44,514 bases of DNA from a virus, in IMG/VR virus record IMGVR_UViG_3300032271_000994, positions 1 through 44,514 of that record, one strand, 5' to 3'. The position numbers were made by a program, and so were the translations under genes. The notes under the pieces were generated by a model. That model saw only the letters and a program-made list of their open reading frames with translations. It was not told the DNA's origin and did not search any database. Positions 4,820 through 33,377 of the stretch are shown piece after piece. Numbering within the stretch: position 1 is the stretch's first letter; every line of letters begins with the position of its first letter.

Positions 4820-5197
4820 ATGTACGCTCCTGATCCGGACGACTTTTTAAATCAATTTATTACCAGTGATGACGAGTTGCAAAAACGTATGGCATGTTGC
4901 TGTGACTTTGGTGCGCCCATGGCAACCGCAAAGGCTGACGTTCCTATCTATGATCAATATAACCGTGGTTTGACTCTGTGTCAGGACAGCAATCCGAGAA
5001 CGAATTTAGCATTGGAAGCCAACAGGCCTGGCGTGACTGGTTCCATCCCGTCGATGGAAGAAGCTCATCGCTATCCGGGAACAGTTCCGATGGGCAAGAA
5101 ACTCTTGACGACACTGGGAGCAGTGCCGGAGTCAGTAGTTCGGAAATCAAATTTACAGAATGCGTTGATGGCATCTGCCCAGTCCCGTGGGCGGTAA
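4820..5197 (+). CDS. Small unknown protein, possible upstream part of a frameshifted DUF3310 product
   Basis: 125 residues from ATG 4820 (MYAPDPDDFLNQF). The N-terminus is acidic, followed by a Cys-rich MACCCDFGAP stretch, then ordinary soluble sequence. No domain was recognised. Its last 220 bases overlap the DUF3310 reading frame. A heptamer A AAT TTA at 5149-5155 is phased so that a -1 slip would move ribosomes from this frame into the DUF3310 frame 40 bases before this frame's stop. It may therefore be both a separate protein and the N-terminal part of a fusion. Confidence 0.55.
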   Translation: MYAPDPDDFLNQFITSDDELQKRMACCCDFGAPMATAKADVPIYDQYNRGLTLCQDSNPRTNLALEANRPGVTGSIPSMEEAHRYPGTVPMGKKLLTTLGAVPESVVRKSNLQNALMASAQSRGR

Positions 5198-5451
5198 ATA
5201 AAAGTCCTATCGCTCCCAAGGGGGATCCCGTAGATCACCCAGAGCATTACACGGCAGGTAAGGTAGAAATCATTGAGATCCTGGAGCAGGCGGTAGAAGA
5301 CGCCCCTGATCCAATCTCTGGTGGTTTGCTGTGGCAAACACTTAAATATTTGTTACGACTTTGGTATAAAGGCAACATGCTCCAGGATGCTAAGAAGGCT
5401 CGCTGGTATCTCAACCGTTTGATTGAGCGCTTGGAACGCGACTACGTTTAG
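4978..5451 (+). CDS. DUF3310 (SaV-like) protein
   Basis: The C-terminal half carries the phage DUF3310 signature: DPVDHPEHY (residues 83-91 counted from the GTG), then helices with IIEILEQ and LWQTLKYLLRLWYKG. Family members are usually encoded near nucleotide-metabolism genes, and dcd lies just upstream; the biochemical role is not established. The only conventional start codon in this frame before the domain is a GTG at 4978, which lacks a Shine-Dalgarno sequence. The Ser/Gly-rich first 75 residues overlap the preceding gene in another frame. Production by -1 frameshifting from that gene is an alternative. The stop overlaps the convergent nblA by 4 bases. Confidence 0.75.
   Translation: MSGQQSENEFSIGSQQAWRDWFHPVDGRSSSLSGNSSDGQETLDDTGSSAGVSSSEIKFTECVDGICPVPWAVNKSPIAPKGDPVDHPEHYTAGKVEIIEILEQAVEDAPDPISGGLLWQTLKYLLRLWYKGNMLQDAKKARWYLNRLIERLERDYV
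5149..5155 (+). other. Candidate -1 ribosomal frameshift heptamer A AAT TTA
   Basis: The heptamer has the X XXY YYZ form, with codons AAT TTA in the 4820 frame. After slipping they read AAA TTT in the DUF3310 frame. It lies 40 bases before the stop of the upstream frame. No convincing downstream pseudoknot was found by eye, and a fitting heptamer could occur by chance in a 220-base overlap, at roughly one chance in four. Confidence 0.3.
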
Positions 5452-5735
5452 AAAGGAACAGGCAGGTCTTCGCCGTCGTCATCTTCTTCCATGCAGGCGA
5501 CGGCAAGATCATGTAGCTCCAAATCTGTTGGAACGTCAAATTCAAGCAAAATATTTTCTTTGTCTAGGATAGTTTTGACAGCTTCCCACTCCATTAACCT
5601 GCGGTAGTAGAGGTTAAGCAAAGCAGCTCGCAGTTCATCCCATGTCATTTCCTCTGCTGCAAGCTCAGCTTTACGCATAGAAAACTGCAATTCCAAAGGA
5701 AGCTCAAATTCCCTGGGCTCAGCAAAGTCTTCCAT
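5448..5735 (-). CDS. nblA: NblA-like phycobilisome degradation protein
   Basis: 95 residues from ATG 5735. Residues 11-60 match the NblA pattern: ELPLELQFSMR corresponds to the family's LsLEQQFslR, EEMTWDELRAALLNLYYRRLM to the mSreqa..fLv.LYrqmm helix, and then WEAVKTILDKE. In cyanobacteria NblA is a small helical adaptor that brings phycobilisomes to the Clp protease for breakdown. Some freshwater cyanophages carry a copy, thought to free amino acids and reduce light absorption during infection. This copy is longer than typical (about 55-65 residues) because of an acidic C-terminal tail (CMEEDDDGEDLPVPF). It follows lysozyme on the same strand. The open frame extends upstream into the lysozyme gene, but ATG 5735 fits the family start. 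Confidence 0.8.
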   Translation of the reverse strand: MEDFAEPREFELPLELQFSMRKAELAAEEMTWDELRAALLNLYYRRLMEWEAVKTILDKENILLEFDVPTDLELHDLAVACMEEDDDGEDLPVPF

Positions 5736-5764: not shown

Positions 5765-6451
5765 CTAAAGCCGGTCTTCTTGTCCGTCGCCTGGTGACTG
5801 AAAAAGATAGTCCAATGATTTGTCGCTCAATAACGCCCAATGGTCTCCATTGATTGAAAAGTTGTTTGCAAATTCTGCAAGAACATAAGGGTTAATTTTT
5901 TGCTCTAGTTTTTGAATAGCATCTACTTGCTCAGTGGACGCTGCGTAACTCCTGAAAGCTGTTAGTAACACATCTTCACATACCTTGACAGGTTGCTTTA
6001 TTTCTGTTAAGAACAAAAGGCTTTCTTCCCTGCGTCGTTCCAGGAGGCCACCAATCACCTGGTGCTCTTGATCAAAAATCCACTGAGAAAATTCTTCTAC
6101 TACTCCTTCCCAATCTTCTACATCAATGCAATCAATCAAAGCACTATAAAGAAAAGGCTTCCAGCCTACCGAGTGAATAAATGAAATCAAAGCTTGCTTC
6201 ATGTATTCATCTAAGCGCAGATTTAATTTGTTTATTTCTTGTTCAATAACATTTGCTTCATGCAAAAGATATTCCAGTGCTTTTTGCTTGGTACAACAAT
6301 GACCAGCTTTTACGGGAGAACCGTCTGGATAATATTGCGTTCCAAAACCAAATGTATAAGGAGCATCTCCTGTCTCCGGATCGGCATAGGCTTTTTCATT
6401 AAAGCCTTCGTGCTTACAGATTAGCTCCAAAGCAGGAGAAAAGTTTGTCAT
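5765..6451 (-). CDS. T4-type lysozyme endolysin (GH24)
   Basis: 228 residues from ATG 6451. The N-terminus carries the GH24 catalytic layout E-x8-D-x8-T: E15 in ICKHEGF, D24 in AYADPE and T33 in APYTFGFG. QALISFIHSVGWKPFLYS and a C-terminal LLERRREESLLF follow, as in phage lysozymes (muramidases cutting peptidoglycan). There is no signal peptide, so release through a holin is expected. A GTG at 6481 would add 10 residues; ATG 6451 is preferred on family alignment. A perfect GGGAG/CTCCC stem covers the region just upstream (separate entry). nblA follows directly. Confidence 0.88.
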   Translation of the reverse strand: MTNFSPALELICKHEGFNEKAYADPETGDAPYTFGFGTQYYPDGSPVKAGHCCTKQKALEYLLHEANVIEQEINKLNLRLDEYMKQALISFIHSVGWKPFLYSALIDCIDVEDWEGVVEEFSQWIFDQEHQVIGGLLERRREESLLFLTEIKQPVKVCEDVLLTAFRSYAASTEQVDAIQKLEQKINPYVLAEFANNFSINGDHWALLSDKSLDYLFQSPGDGQEDRL

Positions 6452-6472
6452 GGGAGCACAATATGTACTCCC
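6452..6472 (-). promoter_or_regulatory. Hairpin covering the lysozyme ribosome binding site
   Basis: On the minus strand GGGAG pairs with CTCCC, which directly abuts the ATG at 6451; an inner ACA/TGT extends the stem, with one mismatch and a 3-base loop. GGGAG is also the only Shine-Dalgarno candidate for this start, so folding would hide it. In phage T4 the lysozyme gene is known to have a comparable sequestering hairpin in some transcripts. Regulation here is inference. Confidence 0.5.
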
Positions 6473-6497
6473 ATCATACACATCTTAATAGTCAATA

Positions 6498-11340: not shown

Positions 11341-11365
11341 CAGCCTCCTTAGGGGGGCTGTTTTT
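11341..11365 (+). terminator. Rho-independent terminator
   Basis: CAGCCTCC pairs with GGGGGCTG around a TTAG loop (8 bp, one G-U pair), followed by TTTTTATTG. It ends the 11096 transcript just at the tail of the convergent glycosyltransferase gene. Confidence 0.85.
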
Positions 11366-12974
11366 ATTGTTTCATGTAAACCAGTAGATTTTGAACAAAC
11401 CAACCCATATGGTAGTCTTTTTTCATTTCTTCAATAAGAACTAGCTCTACTCCATTACAACGTTTTAACGGTTGTGTTTTAAACAAGTCAGCCCAATATT
11501 CTTTTGTTTGACAGTTAATGTGTCCAACACCGCCTTGACCAGGTTTTGCCGCAGTCCATATCAACACCCCCTTGGGGGACAATGCATTTGACATTGCCTC
11601 AACAATTTGCAAATTATTAGAGGAGTCAATGTGCTCAGCTACTTCCAGACAAAGAACCACGTCTGCGTTTTCTTCTACATCAAAGAGACTTTTGCAAATT
11701 AAATTAGCATTTCCTTCAACGCGAAGATCTGTGTCATAACCAACAGCAGCTACGCCTAATTCCTGGAAACAATTAACATATGTTCCAGGACCGCAGCCAA
11801 GATCTAAAACTTTTTGAGGGTTTAGGTTATTTTTAACCCATTCAGCCAAACGTCGGGCAAAAGGCAGCTCTTCATTGTGCAGGTATGTGTAGTCAATTTG
11901 ATCTGTTTCAGGTAATTGATACCAGCCCTTGCGCCAAAGATTGTTGATATCTTTAAAAATTTTGTCGTACTTTTTGCCACACGCCTCAAGGCTATAACGT
12001 TCCCTGGTTGTATTAGCTACAACAGATCGATCAATTGAATCAATATTATTGATGGCATTAATCCAATCTTCAAGTGTGTGGCAACGAAATCCGGTAACAC
12101 CATCAATAATTGTTTCGGTAAAAGCGCCGTAGTCAACTGCAATTAACGGTGTACCGCACAACATTGCCTCAACACCGCTGCCTCCAAATGGTTCAGTAAA
12201 GTTTGTTGGCATTAGCGCGGCACGTGCGTTGCGCAAAAATTCGGAACGTGCTTTGCCTGTAATTGGACCACGGTATTCAATGTTTGGGTGGCTCCAGGGA
12301 GCTGGGTCTCCTTGCCCATGTAAAACAATTGGCCAAGGGCTATAGTTAGCAATTTCTTTAATGGTGTCCAACCCTTTGGCGGAACAAATGCGCCCAAGAA
12401 AAGCTAAGTATTGACCTGGTTTATAGGAAGGCTCCCATTCATCTAGATCAAAATAATTAGGAACAACCCATTCATAGTTTTTGCCTTGCCTATTTTCTTT
12501 CCCCTGGTGGTAATGCATCCAAGCATAACTTTCAAAGATACAAAAACTATTGACCATTAGTGTTGGGTAGCCAATTCCAGTCTCGACGTGGTGATGCTCA
12601 GGGAATTCAGATAGCAAACGACTATGGGCATGGCCAAAAGGATGGCAAATTATATCTTCTTTTTCTAAATTTTCTTTTAAAGCCGGAATCAAGCGTTCTT
12701 CAAATAATGTGTGCCCCTTACTGCCGACCGTAGCATCATCACCATGAAAGTCAGCTTCTTTTCTTTTTCCATAAAACAAATTAAATTCGTCATTTGTTAA
12801 CATAATGACATGTTTGTTTGCAGTCGATTCGCTGCCTTCATTTGAATACTCAATTATTTCATAACCGTAGTTTTGCATCATCTTGGGAAAACGCAAAACT
12901 TTTCCCGTAAAAGCACAATGGGAATACTCAAGGTTTGTTTTAGTGTGAAACAAACCAATTAAATGAAGGCGCAT
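11364..12974 (-). CDS. Glycosyltransferase family 4 / SAM methyltransferase fusion
   Basis: 536 residues with two domains. The N-terminal part (about 1-345) is a GT-B glycosyltransferase: FLGRICSAKGLD (192-203) and the family-4 E-x7-E motif at E261/E269 within EPFGGSGVEAMLCGTP. The C-terminal part (about 365-536) is a class I methyltransferase: VLDLGCGPGTY (389-399), then acidic motif ADVVLCLEVAEHI and SPKGVLIW. Such fusions could build and cap a sugar on a phage surface protein or modify host glycans. The adjoining collagen-like fibre, rich in Thr, is a possible acceptor, but no substrate can be read from sequence. Confidence 0.88.
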   Translation of the reverse strand: MRLHLIGLFHTKTNLEYSHCAFTGKVLRFPKMMQNYGYEIIEYSNEGSESTANKHVIMLTNDEFNLFYGKRKEADFHGDDATVGSKGHTLFEERLIPALKENLEKEDIICHPFGHAHSRLLSEFPEHHHVETGIGYPTLMVNSFCIFESYAWMHYHQGKENRQGKNYEWVVPNYFDLDEWEPSYKPGQYLAFLGRICSAKGLDTIKEIANYSPWPIVLHGQGDPAPWSHPNIEYRGPITGKARSEFLRNARAALMPTNFTEPFGGSGVEAMLCGTPLIAVDYGAFTETIIDGVTGFRCHTLEDWINAINNIDSIDRSVVANTTRERYSLEACGKKYDKIFKDINNLWRKGWYQLPETDQIDYTYLHNEELPFARRLAEWVKNNLNPQKVLDLGCGPGTYVNCFQELGVAAVGYDTDLRVEGNANLICKSLFDVEENADVVLCLEVAEHIDSSNNLQIVEAMSNALSPKGVLIWTAAKPGQGGVGHINCQTKEYWADLFKTQPLKRCNGVELVLIEEMKKDYHMGWFVQNLLVYMKQ

Positions 12975-13013: not shown

Positions 13014-15167
13014 TTACACCCAAGTACCGACGGAAGTGTCCGCACCAGACGCGCCAATAGGGTAAAAAGATGCCCACGATCCCAAAGCCGTGGTGTAGGC
13101 GGCCCCAGGTGCGACTGAAAGTGCATAGAGTGGGACAAATGTGCCACTTGTATTAATGCTAACAGTACCCCTTACTTGAACATAAAGGTTATACGTAGCG
13201 GATGAAATGCTTGAAAAATAAATGGCCGGGGTGGTTGAGTTATAAGTAGCGCTAAACGCGCTTGCATTGGTTGGGTTTGCGTTGGAAGTTCCTGTAATTG
13301 TGATGTAATACAGCAAATTATTGGTATTTATGGTAGCGGAACCCCCAAATCCAAATAAAAAGTTGTGCAAGCCTCCGCCTACAGTTTTTGAAAAATAAAA
13401 AACTCCATCAAAAGCATATACTGTACTGGCTGCAAGTGTTACCCCACTAGAAGAGTTAATGGCCGTACTAGATACTGTTTGAGAAGCACTGATCGTGTAA
13501 GTTCCGGCGCCCCCTGTTCCAGTTCCAAGAGCGGTAATGTATGTACCGGCAGTAACTCCGCTACCATATATTGTTTGCCCAACAGCAAACGTTCCCGTAA
13601 CCGTACCCCCAACAGTTAAAGTCGTAGTAGAAATACTAGAAGCCGTAGATCTGCCGTTAGTGAACACGCCTTGGGTAGAAGTGGCAATATTTAAACCAAC
13701 ACTTGCTGAATTTAAGCGGTAATACTGCATTGACGGCGACACGCCACGTGCTACTGGCGTTGAATAGATCACCTTGCCGTCGTATTCCATCGCACCAGCC
13801 GTTGCACTGGTCAGGTTTGTGCCCGATTGGAATGTCAACGGTGACAGTGACGTGGTGCCCGCCGCCAACGTCAAATTGCTGGTCAACGTGCCCCCAGTAA
13901 AACTGCCTCCCGCACTAGGGCCTGTAGCCCCTACTGGACCAGTAGCCCCTGTTGCTCCTGTGATGCCAACACCTGTGGGTCCAGTGGCTCCGTTAATTCC
14001 TGTTGCTCCCTGTATGCCTGTTGCTCCCTGTATGCCTGTTGCACCTTGAATACCTGTTGCTCCCTGTATGCCTGTTGCACCAATTGGTCCCGTAGTTCCT
14101 TGTACTCCTGTTGCGCCATCAACACCAGTAGCTCCAGTGGGGCCTTGAATACCTGTGGCACCAGTAATGCCAACACCTGTAGGCCCTGTGGTGCCCTGCA
14201 CTCCAGTGGGACCTTGTACGCCTGTGACACCCTGAACACCAGTAGGGCCTTGCACTCCGGTAGCGCCAGTGATGCCAACACCTGTGGGTCCAGTGGTACC
14301 CTGTACGCCTGTTACACCCTGCACGCCTGTAGCGCCCTGTACGCCTGTAGCGCCCTGTACGCCCGTGGCACCCGTAATGCCCACACCCGTAGGCCCAGTG
14401 GTCCCCTGGAGACCAGTAGCGCCCTGTACGCCTGTTACACCTTGAGTTCCGGTAGGACCTTGAATACCCGTGGCACCAGTAATGCCAACACCTGTAGGCC
14501 CTGTGGTACCCTGTACGCCTGTAGCGCCTGAAATACCAATGACACCTTGAATACCGGTAGAGCCCTGTAGACCAGTTGCGCCAGTGATGCCAACACCTGT
14601 AGGTCCAGTGATTCCTTGAATACCTTGAACTCCTGTGGGGCCAGTGATTCCCTGTATGCCGGTAGACCCTTGAAGCCCTGTGGCACCAGTGATTCCTACA
14701 CCGGTAGGGCCTTGTATCCCAGTTGCACCGGTGACGCCAGTTGCGCCACCAGGAGTACCAGCAGCACCGGTAGGGCCAGTAGCCCCAATCATGGTGTAAA
14801 CTTTTGCTAAACCAGTTGCGTCATATACATTCCAGTCGCCATTTTGATTAAGGGCTAATTCTTCCCCAGGGGCCAGAGTGCCGCTCCAAAGAGTTGTGAC
14901 CGTTGTCCCATCCGTATGTTCAATGGTTACCGTATTATTTCCGGAGGGGACATCGTTTTTTAAATAAAAAGTTCGGACGTTGCGTTGAATGTTGGCTGCA
15001 GGACCCGCAACAATTGTGGTTGTAGTAGCGGTTGCAATTATTGTATTGGTGCGTCCAGCACTTACGACTCCGCTGCTGTTATCTGCATACGATGCATGTA
15101 CTTCAATATTACCGGCTGACGCAGTAATTACGTAAAGAGCGTCAAATGGAGAGGCCAGTAATAGCAT
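13014..15167 (-). CDS. Collagen-like tail fibre / surface fibre protein
   Basis: 717 residues. The N-terminal ~125 residues form a beta-rich non-repetitive domain ending in [13 protein letters not shown]. Residues ~126-417 are a near-continuous Gly-x-y collagen triplet region built from units such as GATGVQG and [12 protein letters not shown]. The C-terminal ~300 residues are Ser/Thr/Gly-rich with beta character, typical of a trimeric head or receptor-binding domain. Gly-x-y repeats form triple helices in phage fibres. Thr commonly stands in the third position (GAT, GPT), as in other bacterial and phage collagens, and offers many possible glycosylation sites; the GT/MT fusion is the next gene. 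Confidence 0.88.
13915..14790 (-). repeat. Coding collagen-triplet repeat tract
   Basis: About 290 codons of in-frame 9- to 36-base units encoding Gly-x-y. A longer period ([12 protein letters not shown] plus variable triplets) recurs several times with high nucleotide similarity. Such tracts change length readily by slippage or recombination. Confidence 0.85.
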
Positions 15168-24095: not shown

Positions 24096-25121
24096 TCACT
24101 CCATTACAAACAATTTGTTTGCAACAACTTGAGGTTGAGCTTGGTTCAAAACGCGCCAGGCATTCTGGGGGTCACGCGCCATAATTTCATTGAAGCCGCC
24201 CCAGAAGTTTTCAGGTTGCTGAGGAGCATCAGCTGAAGGGGGAGCAGGGAAGTTGCCGATGTTAGCCATGGCAGGCTGAGTCGGATAACCAGGACGCTCA
24301 AGTTCCGCCGTGCTTTCGTACACAGGATACGGACCTTCGGGACCAAAGAACCGCAGCGTGTAATCGCTAAGGGTGTCAGGATTGGTCAGGATTTCGTTGT
24401 AAGCCAGGTTCTCCTGGTGCTCATTAACCGCAAAGTTGGCATAACCACCCAGGGTAGCAGTAGCCTCATTGCCCCAAGCAACAGCACTATCCAACATTCC
24501 TTCAAGTTGAAGGGCGTAGTTATTTAGAATTCCGGGTGCTTCCTTTCCGAACGCGTCCAGAACTTGGCGTGTTTCGTTGCTTAGGTTGTAGTAATCCGCG
24601 ATTGCCAGGTCCACTTCCCGTGCTTCCACTGCCGGTAAGGGCATTGAGGATGTTTGGGAATAATTGGGCGATAAGCCCTGGCTGGGATACGAGGTCTGCA
24701 TCCCCAATGGTTGCAAACCCTGGGGGCTGCTGGGCACCCCATAGTTGGCCGGGGCGTACTGAGTCGTCGGTGTCGACGGTTGACCCTGGAAGGGGGATTG
24801 GACTGGAGCGCTCAGTAGGTTGACCACCTTGTTGAACGCCGATTCCCATGGGTTGCTGACCGGTGCTTCCTGAGAGGGCACCGAGTAGTTCGGTTGGGAT
24901 TGGGGGGCGTACTGAGTAGGGGCGTATTGGTAGTTGGGGGTCGCCTGAGGTACCGCTTGGGGGTAACTCGTACCCACCTGATACGCCTGGGGCGCCGGCG
25001 CTTGCTGATAGCTGGGAGCCACCGCTTGCGTCGGAGTCGGAGCCGCCATCACGTAGCTGCTTGGTGCTACTGACGGTGCTTGGCTCGTCTGTGGGATCGA
25101 TTGGACGGTAGCGTCCTGCAT
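24096..25121 (-). CDS. Scaffold-like head protein, 5' 600 nt overlapping the portal gene
   Basis: 341 residues. ATG 25121 is preceded by AAGGAG with a 7-base spacer, a near-perfect ribosome site lying inside the portal frame. Residues 1-200 are Pro/Gln/Ala/Tyr-rich (VAPSYQQAPAPQAYQVG) and overlap the portal C-terminus in the +1 frame. Residues 200-341 are independent of the portal and include helices (APGILNNYALQLEGMLDSAV, EHQENLAYNEIL). Size, composition and place between portal and coat suit a capsid scaffold, but no family was recognised. Downstream ATGs exist (for example 24641) but lack a comparable ribosome site. Confidence 0.75.
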   Translation of the reverse strand: MQDATVQSIPQTSQAPSVAPSSYVMAAPTPTQAVAPSYQQAPAPQAYQVGTSYPQAVPQATPNYQYAPTQYAPQSQPNYSVPSQEAPVSNPWESAFNKVVNLLSAPVQSPFQGQPSTPTTQYAPANYGVPSSPQGLQPLGMQTSYPSQGLSPNYSQTSSMPLPAVEAREVDLAIADYYNLSNETRQVLDAFGKEAPGILNNYALQLEGMLDSAVAWGNEATATLGGYANFAVNEHQENLAYNEILTNPDTLSDYTLRFFGPEGPYPVYESTAELERPGYPTQPAMANIGNFPAPPSADAPQQPENFWGGFNEIMARDPQNAWRVLNQAQPQVVANKLFVME

Positions 25122-26874
25122 AGCTCATCTCCTTTTGTAATGCTTCTAAGGTTCGATACAGATACGGTGTTAGATCCAGCCTTGGATCCGCAGCCATCGG
25201 AAGATCCGGTGACTCCGGGTGGGGGGTCTGCATCATTCCACCCACAAGGCGGGCAAATTGAGAAAATGCATTCTGCAATTCACCAACCATCCTGAACGGG
25301 AAACCGCTTAACATAGCGGCTCGTTCCTCATCCGTTTTTGACGGAAAGAGAAACTTCAGTGCTTCAATGCTATCAACACCTAACTCCTGAAGGTTTCTTA
25401 CGACAATAGAGTTATTCAAAACATCTTGTGTAGATTCCTCATACACAGGGCCAGTCCAACGCCAAAGGACCGTGAGATCACCATCGGGAATTAAACCTGT
25501 GACGCCTGGAGGAACAATTTTAGTGTTCATGCAGGCCATCATTATTTGTTTGACTTTTTCATCAAACCCAATCATGGCCTCTTTGTACGCTTGATTTTCC
25601 TCCGGTGGAGCATTCTCAGGTGGTTCCACAGGCTCCTCAAAGCCTGCGGCATGTGCTAACGATGCCCTGAACAATCTTTCTTCTTGAAAAATAATTAACT
25701 CAAGACAACGCGCAATGCCGTAAGTATAAATAGCAGTAGCTTTTTTCTTTGATGTAGCAGCAACACGACCAAATAATGATTTGTATTCTGTTGCAGTTAC
25801 GCCTGCTGAAATAGATAATTCATCTACACCACCAAGTGCAGTTCGAATCTCTTCTCGGTAAGTACGGGCAAACGCATTTTGGTCGCCAGTAATAGCATCT
25901 GGAACAATGTAACCAACCCGATCATTTGGCTCTAGGTTTGCAATGACCCTTGGTACACGAATCTGACCATCTACACTACTGCGTCCAATGGGATCAGCTT
26001 TAAACGTAGATCGGCTTAGTGCTCCCAAGCTGCCAAATCCTGAGTTTGCCGCAATAGATGGTCGCTGAACTGCAGAGTCTGCGCCTGACTCCATAAGGTC
26101 AGTCTTGGGCCTGGAAGAAAGAAGTGTTGGGTTACCAAAAAACTGAACATTTTTCCGCATGGTGCGGACTAATTCATCATGCGTAGTGATGTGTGAAGCA
26201 AATGCATCAAATTCGCCAGTGCCTTCAGTTGAGAATCCCTTGGGATTATTAAAAATTTCTACGCAGGGAATAAATCCGAGGGTGTTATCAAATGTCTTTG
26301 TTCTGCCAAGGGCTGTATAGTTGGGCATGTCAAAAGACATCTCGCCTTCTGAATGCGTTTCTTCAATGGTTCGACGCTTAATTGAAAGCCTGATGTAACG
26401 CTTAGCTCCTTGCGCACCAAGGGTTTGCGTGCCCGTAATATTGCTTACAGCGATGTTGTCACCAAAGCCGTTACCCTTCTTAACTTTGTAGCTGTAAATG
26501 ATTACGACTTCATCAAGCTGGCCATCAACGTTGTAATAACTACGGTATTCATGGTTGCGAAAATAATACAGGCGATAGTTGGACTGAGTAGGGCGAATGT
26601 AAAAAATGCCTTTTCCATCACACAAAAAGTAGTCCCAAATGGAATCAAGCCTGGTGTCTAGCTGGTTGTATTTGACAACTCGATCCAGAAAATCTTTGCG
26701 TTGGTTACCAAAATTATCTTGGGAGGGGAAAAATTCAACACCCTGGCGGATGCCAAACATCTTCATCTGAGACAAATGAGACCCAACAACCATGGTATCG
26801 ACGTGCGCCGACCCATCTTTTTCGACCGTTGCGTCAATAATTTCTTTTAATCTGGCTTTTGCATCGACCGCCAT
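24520..26874 (-). CDS. Portal protein
   Basis: 784 residues. The body (about 1-560) looks like a phage portal: a helical N-terminus, LDSIWDYFLCDGKGIFYIR, the YNVDGQLDEVVIIYSYKV strands, and a long helical stem/crown region with GVDELSISAGVTATEYKSLF and a later conserved-looking DLTVLWRWTGPVYEEST. The last ~200 residues, from about residue 585, are Ser/Gly/Pro/Gln-rich and disordered-looking and overlap the scaffold-like gene for 602 bases in a different frame. Portals form the packaging channel at one capsid vertex. It is downstream of TerL in the standard order. Confidence 0.8.
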   Translation of the reverse strand: MAVDAKARLKEIIDATVEKDGSAHVDTMVVGSHLSQMKMFGIRQGVEFFPSQDNFGNQRKDFLDRVVKYNQLDTRLDSIWDYFLCDGKGIFYIRPTQSNYRLYYFRNHEYRSYYNVDGQLDEVVIIYSYKVKKGNGFGDNIAVSNITGTQTLGAQGAKRYIRLSIKRRTIEETHSEGEMSFDMPNYTALGRTKTFDNTLGFIPCVEIFNNPKGFSTEGTGEFDAFASHITTHDELVRTMRKNVQFFGNPTLLSSRPKTDLMESGADSAVQRPSIAANSGFGSLGALSRSTFKADPIGRSSVDGQIRVPRVIANLEPNDRVGYIVPDAITGDQNAFARTYREEIRTALGGVDELSISAGVTATEYKSLFGRVAATSKKKATAIYTYGIARCLELIIFQEERLFRASLAHAAGFEEPVEPPENAPPEENQAYKEAMIGFDEKVKQIMMACMNTKIVPPGVTGLIPDGDLTVLWRWTGPVYEESTQDVLNNSIVVRNLQELGVDSIEALKFLFPSKTDEERAAMLSGFPFRMVGELQNAFSQFARLVGGMMQTPHPESPDLPMAADPRLDLTPYLYRTLEALQKEMSYAGRYRPIDPTDEPSTVSSTKQLRDGGSDSDASGGSQLSASAGAPGVSGGYELPPSGTSGDPQLPIRPYSVRPPIPTELLGALSGSTGQQPMGIGVQQGGQPTERSSPIPLPGSTVDTDDSVRPGQLWGAQQPPGFATIGDADLVSQPGLIAQLFPNILNALTGSGSTGSGPGNRGLLQPKQRNTPSSGRVRKGSTRNSK

Positions 26875-32154: not shown

Positions 32155-32607
32155 TTATTCCCCTAACTGTTTTTTAAACAGTTTACGAATGCTAACGTTT
32201 ACTTCTTTCATCTTACTATGTCCTTGAGTTAAAAATGCCACTAAAGGCAAAAGTTCATTTATGTAATCACGCAACACATGAGCGTAAATTTTATCTGTTA
32301 AATCGCCGTTGTCAAGAATGTTGCTTGCCTGCCAGGTGTTCCACAGAATTAAATGCTGGCCAAATAAAATTTTTTCATTATTGCGATAAAAAATATTACC
32401 TGGAATCAAAACAAACAAATACTCAATCAGTTTCATTAGTTGTTGCCTTGAAAATTCTTTGGGTTCATCTTGTATGTCATCAACAATTCGAGCAGCTGAT
32501 GCCATCAAGTGAAGATACTCCAAAGCGGCTTGGTTGCTACCAGCCGCTTCTTTGATGATAAAATCTACTTTAAGATCATTTGCGCGGCGTTCTTCAGGGC
32601 TGCTCAT
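32155..32607 (-). CDS. Helical unknown protein
   Basis: 150 residues, mostly helical with amphipathic and moderately hydrophobic stretches (LMKLIEYLFVLIPGNIFY; DYINELLPLVAFLTQGH). No typical membrane span. The start overlaps the stop of the methyltransferase gene by 4 bases (ATGA), so the two are probably translationally coupled. Function not recognised. Confidence 0.65.
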   Translation of the reverse strand: MSSPEERRANDLKVDFIIKEAAGSNQAALEYLHLMASAARIVDDIQDEPKEFSRQQLMKLIEYLFVLIPGNIFYRNNEKILFGQHLILWNTWQASNILDNGDLTDKIYAHVLRDYINELLPLVAFLTQGHSKMKEVNVSIRKLFKKQLGE

Positions 32608-33377
32608 TTTTTTGTATACAAGAATTCAGAGACTTTGATCGGAGAAAAAGGCACTTGGCAATTATGGTATTCACCCAGACCATTGTCAACCAGGTCCGTC
32701 CAGGGTTCAAAATCCAAAATAGGGTTTAAATTTGGATTGAAATCAATTAATTTAAAATCAAAAAACGAAGCTGTTTCTAGGTGGTACCATACGGGATAAC
32801 ACATGTAATGCCAAATGTCTTGAACATATTGGATCCAACGAGTTTGCTGGGGGTCTGGATCTTCTACGGCACACATATCTGAGATCAAAAGTTTCCCACC
32901 AGGCTTTAAAACACGCTTGACTTCTTCTAAGGTGCCAAGGAGAGGACGGTATCCAATACTTTGGTAAAAATAAATAAAATCAAACGACTCATCTTCAAAT
33001 GGCATCTTGTCATAAGAACTTAATACAAAGTCAATATTGTTGGGATTATTTTTTTTAGCTTCTTCAATCTGTTCAGGAGAAATATTTAGACCTGTAAAAG
33101 AAACATCTGGATTTTGCTCTGCAAAATATTTAGAAACTTCCCCAACACCACACCCAGCATCTAACACGTTTTTAGAACCTTCTTGCCAATGTCTTGCATG
33201 CAGTGTTTCCAAGTGTGTTTTAAAATCTGCAGAGTGTAAACCTGCTTGAAAAACACGATAATTATTTTTTAAATACAGCGAAGTACAACCATCCCAATAA
33301 TTTTGCAAAGTTAAATTTTCTTTACACTTGTCTTTGTAAAAACAAGAGTAAGCAAAAAAATCAGAGAAGACTGTCAT
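32604..33377 (-). CDS. Class I SAM-dependent methyltransferase (UbiE/SmtA-like)
   Basis: 257 residues. Motif I VLDAGCGVGEVSKYF (71-85), then FTGLNISPEQIEEAKKN (acidic-loop region), ESFDFIYFYQSIGY (motif IV area) and RVLKPGGKLLISDM (motif VI) are textbook class I methyltransferase features. The remaining C-terminus is Trp/Pro-rich. The substrate is unknown; a small molecule, lipid or glycan is as likely as protein. Together with the GT-MT fusion it suggests surface modification. Confidence 0.85.
   Translation of the reverse strand: MTVFSDFFAYSCFYKDKCKENLTLQNYWDGCTSLYLKNNYRVFQAGLHSADFKTHLETLHARHWQEGSKNVLDAGCGVGEVSKYFAEQNPDVSFTGLNISPEQIEEAKKNNPNNIDFVLSSYDKMPFEDESFDFIYFYQSIGYRPLLGTLEEVKRVLKPGGKLLISDMCAVEDPDPQQTRWIQYVQDIWHYMCYPVWYHLETASFFDFKLIDFNPNLNPILDFEPWTDLVDNGLGEYHNCQVPFSPIKVSEFLYTKK

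Follow-up and report, generated by a model that had tools for sequence, protein, structure and literature searches.

The gene analysed here lies in the window, the whole 44,514-nucleotide stretch of viral DNA under study (IMG/VR record IMGVR_UViG_3300032271_000994), which belongs to an S-EIV1-type phage, as illustrated by its structural protein at 24520-26874 (952 bits against phrog_20475). The minus-strand gene, for which the coordinates and strand of the original prediction were right, encodes a 95-aa product that begins MEDFAEPREFELPLELQFSMRK and ends ACMEEDDDGEDLPVPF (Table 1). The reading frame could be extended to a TTG at 5840, but the family alignment places the start at the ATG at 5735. 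Compared with eight close relatives, the gene has a dN/dS of 0.04-0.15, indicating strong purifying selection and therefore a real protein rather than a chance ORF.

The lysozyme gene lies directly upstream on the shared strand, as predicted, with a gap of 29 bases, and on the other side the stop codons of the NblA-like gene and the DUF3310 gene overlap. The order of genes in this part of the window (HNH, large virion protein, lysozyme, NblA-like, DUF3310-like, dCTP deaminase) is also the order found in Synechococcus phage S-EIV1 and in contig L083, described below.

Table 1. Genes and protein segments at the locus, in window coordinates.
Feature	Position	Strand	Remarks
NblA-like protein, 95 aa	5448..5735	-	ATG at 5735, TAA at 5450-5448, stop included
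NblA-like helix-loop-helix, residues 9-59	5559..5711	-	From hhalign, shuffle control and AlphaFold2 model
LPLELQFSMR, residues 12-21	5673..5702	-	Counterpart of NblA N-terminal LSLEQQFSIR (column comparison)
Conserved linker, residues 60-82, ENIxLxFDxPTDLELxELA	5490..5558	-	Includes predicted third helix, 71-83
Acidic tail, residues 83-95, Pro-Phe end, EEDDDGEDLPVPF	5451..5489	-	
Phage lysozyme	5765..6481	-	Phage_lysozyme (Pfam), E 2.4e-19
DUF3310 protein	4978..5451	+	Convergent with the NblA-like gene

A core gene of S-EIV1-type cyanophages

A tblastn search of phage records returned one relative, in S-EIV1, with 63% identity. This ortholog (AHV82245.1; KJ410740, 73902-74222) is 63% identical over residues 1-81, is also located after the lysozyme gene and has an acidic tail ending in Pro-Phe; it differs in its longer acidic tail, and it is annotated only as 'hypothetical protein'. 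At least 537 stretches in IMG/VR encode a relative. The plasmid collection held none (query P0001), and among 84,980 prokaryote genomes a single contig matched, L083 (PAZU01000015.1, 15.8 kb), from a Euryarchaeota MAG. As its gene order is colinear with the window, L083 is probably a cyanophage contig that was mis-binned in an archaeal genome. A host copy as the source of the gene was rejected, because no plasmid matched and the genome contigs gave only this phage-like MAG contig.

Among loci chosen by the NblA-like gene itself, 152 of 152 have the lysozyme gene immediately upstream of it, and in 159 of 159 the DUF3310 gene follows downstream on the opposite strand, in convergent orientation. 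Such loci are biased for presence of the gene, and sets chosen by lysozyme and by the single-stranded DNA-binding protein (SSB) were therefore included. The gene was present in all 34 loci chosen by lysozyme, and in four of the six records chosen by SSB, which are all four that hold the locus; the other two (G002 and G003) are fragments without the locus, as the lysozyme gene is missing from them too. The NblA-like gene was thus present at every examined locus covering the site, always with lysozyme on one side and the DUF3310 gene converging on it from the other, and it is a core gene of S-EIV1-type cyanophages. Patchy presence and a close host homolog were looked for in the lysozyme- and SSB-chosen loci and the genome contigs, and neither was found. 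With presence and position so fixed, the gene, for which an auxiliary metabolic function had been proposed, is not a sporadic, host-derived auxiliary metabolic gene. In S-EIV1 it is the last in a long series of structural and lysis genes on the plus strand; from this arrangement, it is probably expressed late.

The idea that phage nblA is known from freshwater cyanophages, and so points to the host, is wrong in its premise: phage NblA is already known from freshwater and marine phages, and estuarine phage nblA has also been published (PMC9602691). A clue to the host does exist, through S-EIV1 (host Synechococcus sp. PCCC-A2c, Arctic lake) and not through nblA. For the group containing S-EIV1, hli and ptoX are listed and nblA is not (PMC5332604). 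In the literature examined that names both S-EIV1 and nblA, a set that excludes the S-EIV1 genome paper, no nblA is attributed to S-EIV1.

Relationship to NblA

Against the Pfam NblA family (PF04485), which has a curated cut-off of 25 bits, the window protein alone scored 16.2 bits (E 0.015), and 16.7 bits (E 5.3e-4) when the search was limited to one genome. It had no match in NCBIfam, and as a single-sequence query it reached the Anabaena NblA structure 1ojh at E 0.2. As the searches with the window protein alone were not significant, an assignment to NblA from the single sequence was dropped. The family gave a different result. All 17 members scanned matched Pfam NblA (best E 5e-6), and a profile of the family found 1ojh at E 5.7e-4, with all following matches above 0.2. 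Genuine NblAs match one another at E 9e-4 to 0.013, so the distance of the family from 1ojh is within the spread of NblA itself.

The direct comparison of the two profiles with hhalign gave a probability of 95.3% (E 2.1e-8, score 44.9) over 51 columns without a gap. In the controls, 100 column shuffles scored 10.8 ± 2.2 (maximum 16.3, probability at most 2.4%), and the reversed NblA profile had a probability of 0.6%. By these sequence comparisons, residues 9-59 are homologous to the NblA hairpin at the level of the family. The likeness could otherwise have arisen by chance between short helical hairpins, with no relation to NblA, and the poor scores of the single sequence against Pfam and 1ojh speak for this; the family-level matches, the hhalign probability and the shuffle and reversed-profile controls make it very unlikely.

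The AlphaFold2 model, made from 30 sequences, has helices at residues 14-28 and 32-59, a short third helix at 71-83 and a disordered tail, with a helix-loop-helix in the register of NblA. As a single chain it has a mean pLDDT of 74.5 and a pTM of 0.48, with a mean pLDDT of about 88 over residues 21-60; a model made without an alignment (pLDDT 54) was of no use. Foldseek of the model against the PDB gave no meaningful match and did not find NblA, an outcome taken as uninformative for a short helical protein.

In a column comparison, L7, E10, F13 and R16 of the NblA N-terminal motif LxLEQxFxxR are conserved in the phage family. Gln11, invariant in 12 NblAs, is replaced by Leu or Met. The K53 residue of NblA is important for phycobiliprotein binding; Lys or Arg occupies this position in 11 of the 12 NblAs, and mostly Ala, Glu or Asp in the phage family. 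The WxL end of NblA is absent from the family, and the 36 residues beyond the hairpin are foreign to NblA, including the linker with its predicted third helix (residues 60-82), which ordinary NblA does not have. NblA uses its N-terminal motif to bind ClpC and a C-terminal motif to bind phycobiliproteins (PMC4103541). As four of the N-terminal residues are kept and the C-terminal part is replaced, the ClpC side seems mostly retained and the substrate side rebuilt, which is why the protein is filed here as NblA-like and not as NblA.

The description of the window protein as a recognisable NblA was therefore too strong: homology was detected for the family, while the protein itself is under the Pfam cut-off and some residues conserved in NblA are lost. 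Two of the checks that had been suggested had mixed outcomes. The profile search was significant for the family and not for the single sequence, so that the refuting result named in advance, no significant profile hit, applies to the single sequence and not to the family, and the alignment of binding residues showed the four N-terminal positions kept and Gln11 and Lys53 lost.

One of the closest known systems is NblA/Ycf18 (PF04485; structure 1ojh, and the copies of phages Ma-LMM01 and PaV-LD), with which the family shares the gapless 51-residue hairpin match and carriage by cyanophages. The phage protein is, as noted originally, longer than usual (95 aa against about 60 for NblA), with an extension of 36 residues and an acidic Pro-Phe tail in place of K53 and the NblA end, and it scores 16-17 bits in Pfam NblA where Ma-LMM01 scores 52 and PaV-LD 45. 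The NblAs predicted in marine S-TIM5, S-SCSM1 and cyanopodoviruses are also phage-borne distant relatives detected with profiles (PMC9602691). Pfam NblA gave no match in S-TIM5, Syn5 or S-SCSM1 at E values up to 1, whereas it does match the present family.

The acidic tail and its Pro-Phe end

The acidic tail was as the original prediction described it, with the terminal Pro-Phe left unmentioned. Its unusual character holds in relation to NblA; within this large phage family it is a fixed feature, as all relatives have 7-15 acidic residues among the last 20. Pro-Phe is the C-terminal end in 61 of 69 distinct relatives, including members near 50% identity, and it is kept while the length of the tail varies; the other endings seen in some members are FFG, VF, PY and ESV. 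In the window protein, acidic residues are followed by a terminal Pro-Phe with a free carboxylate (EEDDDGEDLPVPF), which is the arrangement of an SSB-type tip. The DDDIPF tip of E. coli SSB, in which Pro-Phe likewise comes last after a run of acidic residues, binds more than 14 partners, among them many replication and repair proteins, with the carboxylate of the terminal Phe being recognised (PMC5872125).

The SSBs of the lineage also have this ending (7 of 7), that of S-EIV1 ending ...MTDEPF and the six others ...VPF, ...QPF or ...APF. In S-EIV1, G004 and G006 both the NblA-like protein and the SSB end in Pro-Phe, and the G005 SSB ends APF. Only 2 of the 128 S-EIV1 CDSs checked end in Pro-Phe, these being the NblA-like protein and SSB, and in the window 1 of 229 ORFs of at least 60 aa does so. 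The likeness of the tail to an SSB tip is therefore specific. The window is a partial genome, and no SSB was found in it. The NblA-like protein has no OB fold, as it is predicted to be all-helical, and the window protein matched no SSB family; in contrast to E. coli SSB, the tip would be carried on an NblA-like hairpin. In other S-EIV1-type genomes (L237 and L244), further ORFs have SSB-like ends (...VEADIPF, ...TLEEIPF).

Possible functions of the NblA-like protein

The explanation we favour, with a probability of about 0.5, is a divergent NblA-like Clp adaptor, a core protein that is probably expressed late and perhaps still acts on phycobilisomes. The protein would dimerise as NblA does, into a four-helix bundle, its N-terminal motif would dock on host ClpC, and a host protein would be delivered to the ClpC protease. 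The likeliest substrate would still be a phycobilisome protein, whose breakdown late in infection could supply amino acids and reduce the light absorbed; phycobilisomes are degraded by other phage NblAs (PMC9602691). Of these steps, that of the substrate is the weakest, as the phycobiliprotein-binding C-terminal end of NblA is not conserved, and a late-gene position does not obviously fit an early redirection of metabolism. Also against this explanation are the Pfam score under the cut-off, the lack of a match in NCBIfam and of NblA in the Foldseek search, the changes at Gln11 and Lys53, and the 36 foreign residues. If bleaching is retained, all members of a widespread cyanophage lineage would be equipped to dismantle phycobilisomes by an NblA that had gone unannotated, and the trait would be a fixed one and not an occasional extra.

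The rebuilt end could alternatively have given the adaptor a new target. An NblA-like hairpin docking on ClpC and carrying an SSB-type acidic tip with a terminal Pro-Phe carboxylate may bind replication and repair proteins, of host or phage, in their SSB pockets, and either deliver them to ClpC or compete with SSB. The constancy of Pro-Phe across variable tails, its presence in every lineage SSB, its rarity among the other S-EIV1 and window proteins and the many partners of the E. coli tip all speak for this possibility. It is nevertheless unlikely, since some members end differently and SSB pockets require a free terminal Phe, Pro-Phe is a motif of two residues, also present at the end of a few other ORFs of these genomes, and the gene adjoins lysozyme, distant from the replication genes. 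The full version, in which a core protein would redirect host Clp from phycobilisomes to SSB-binding proteins, or block these proteins, appears more doubtful still. If the tip works like that of SSB, a phage adaptor would here be altering the choice of proteins that a host protease destroys; as both S-EIV1 and its host have been cultured, the idea is easy to test. A loss of Clp function altogether, leaving a small helical protein associated with lysis or the virion whose hairpin resembles or descends from that of NblA, would agree with the unvarying position of the gene, flanked by lysozyme and the convergent DUF3310 gene, with its core status and with the loss of Q11 and K53. We consider this improbable too, as conservation is strongest precisely in the NblA N-terminal motif and no lysis or structural family was matched in Pfam or PHROGs; with no membrane segment apparent in its sequence, the protein is not a holin.

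A second NblA-like type was found on contigs L092 and L093, which are phage-like and binned in the 'Euryarchaeota' MAG G001. Like the S-EIV1-type proteins these are extended (113-115 aa), but they keep the EQQF motif and have an acidic tail without Pro-Phe; L092, at 25.1 bits, is just over the Pfam NblA cut-off. Their genes (L092 / L230, 10325-10666; L093 / L231, 9824-10171) each lie beside an HNH gene, and phage records contained no relative of these proteins. Elsewhere in the window, the minus strand encodes a probable tail fibre of 717 aa (13014-15167), which contains a long GATGxxGPTG repeat of collagen-like type, and a 536-aa fusion of a glycosyltransferase and a methyltransferase (11364-12974); a further methyltransferase is encoded at 32604-33377.
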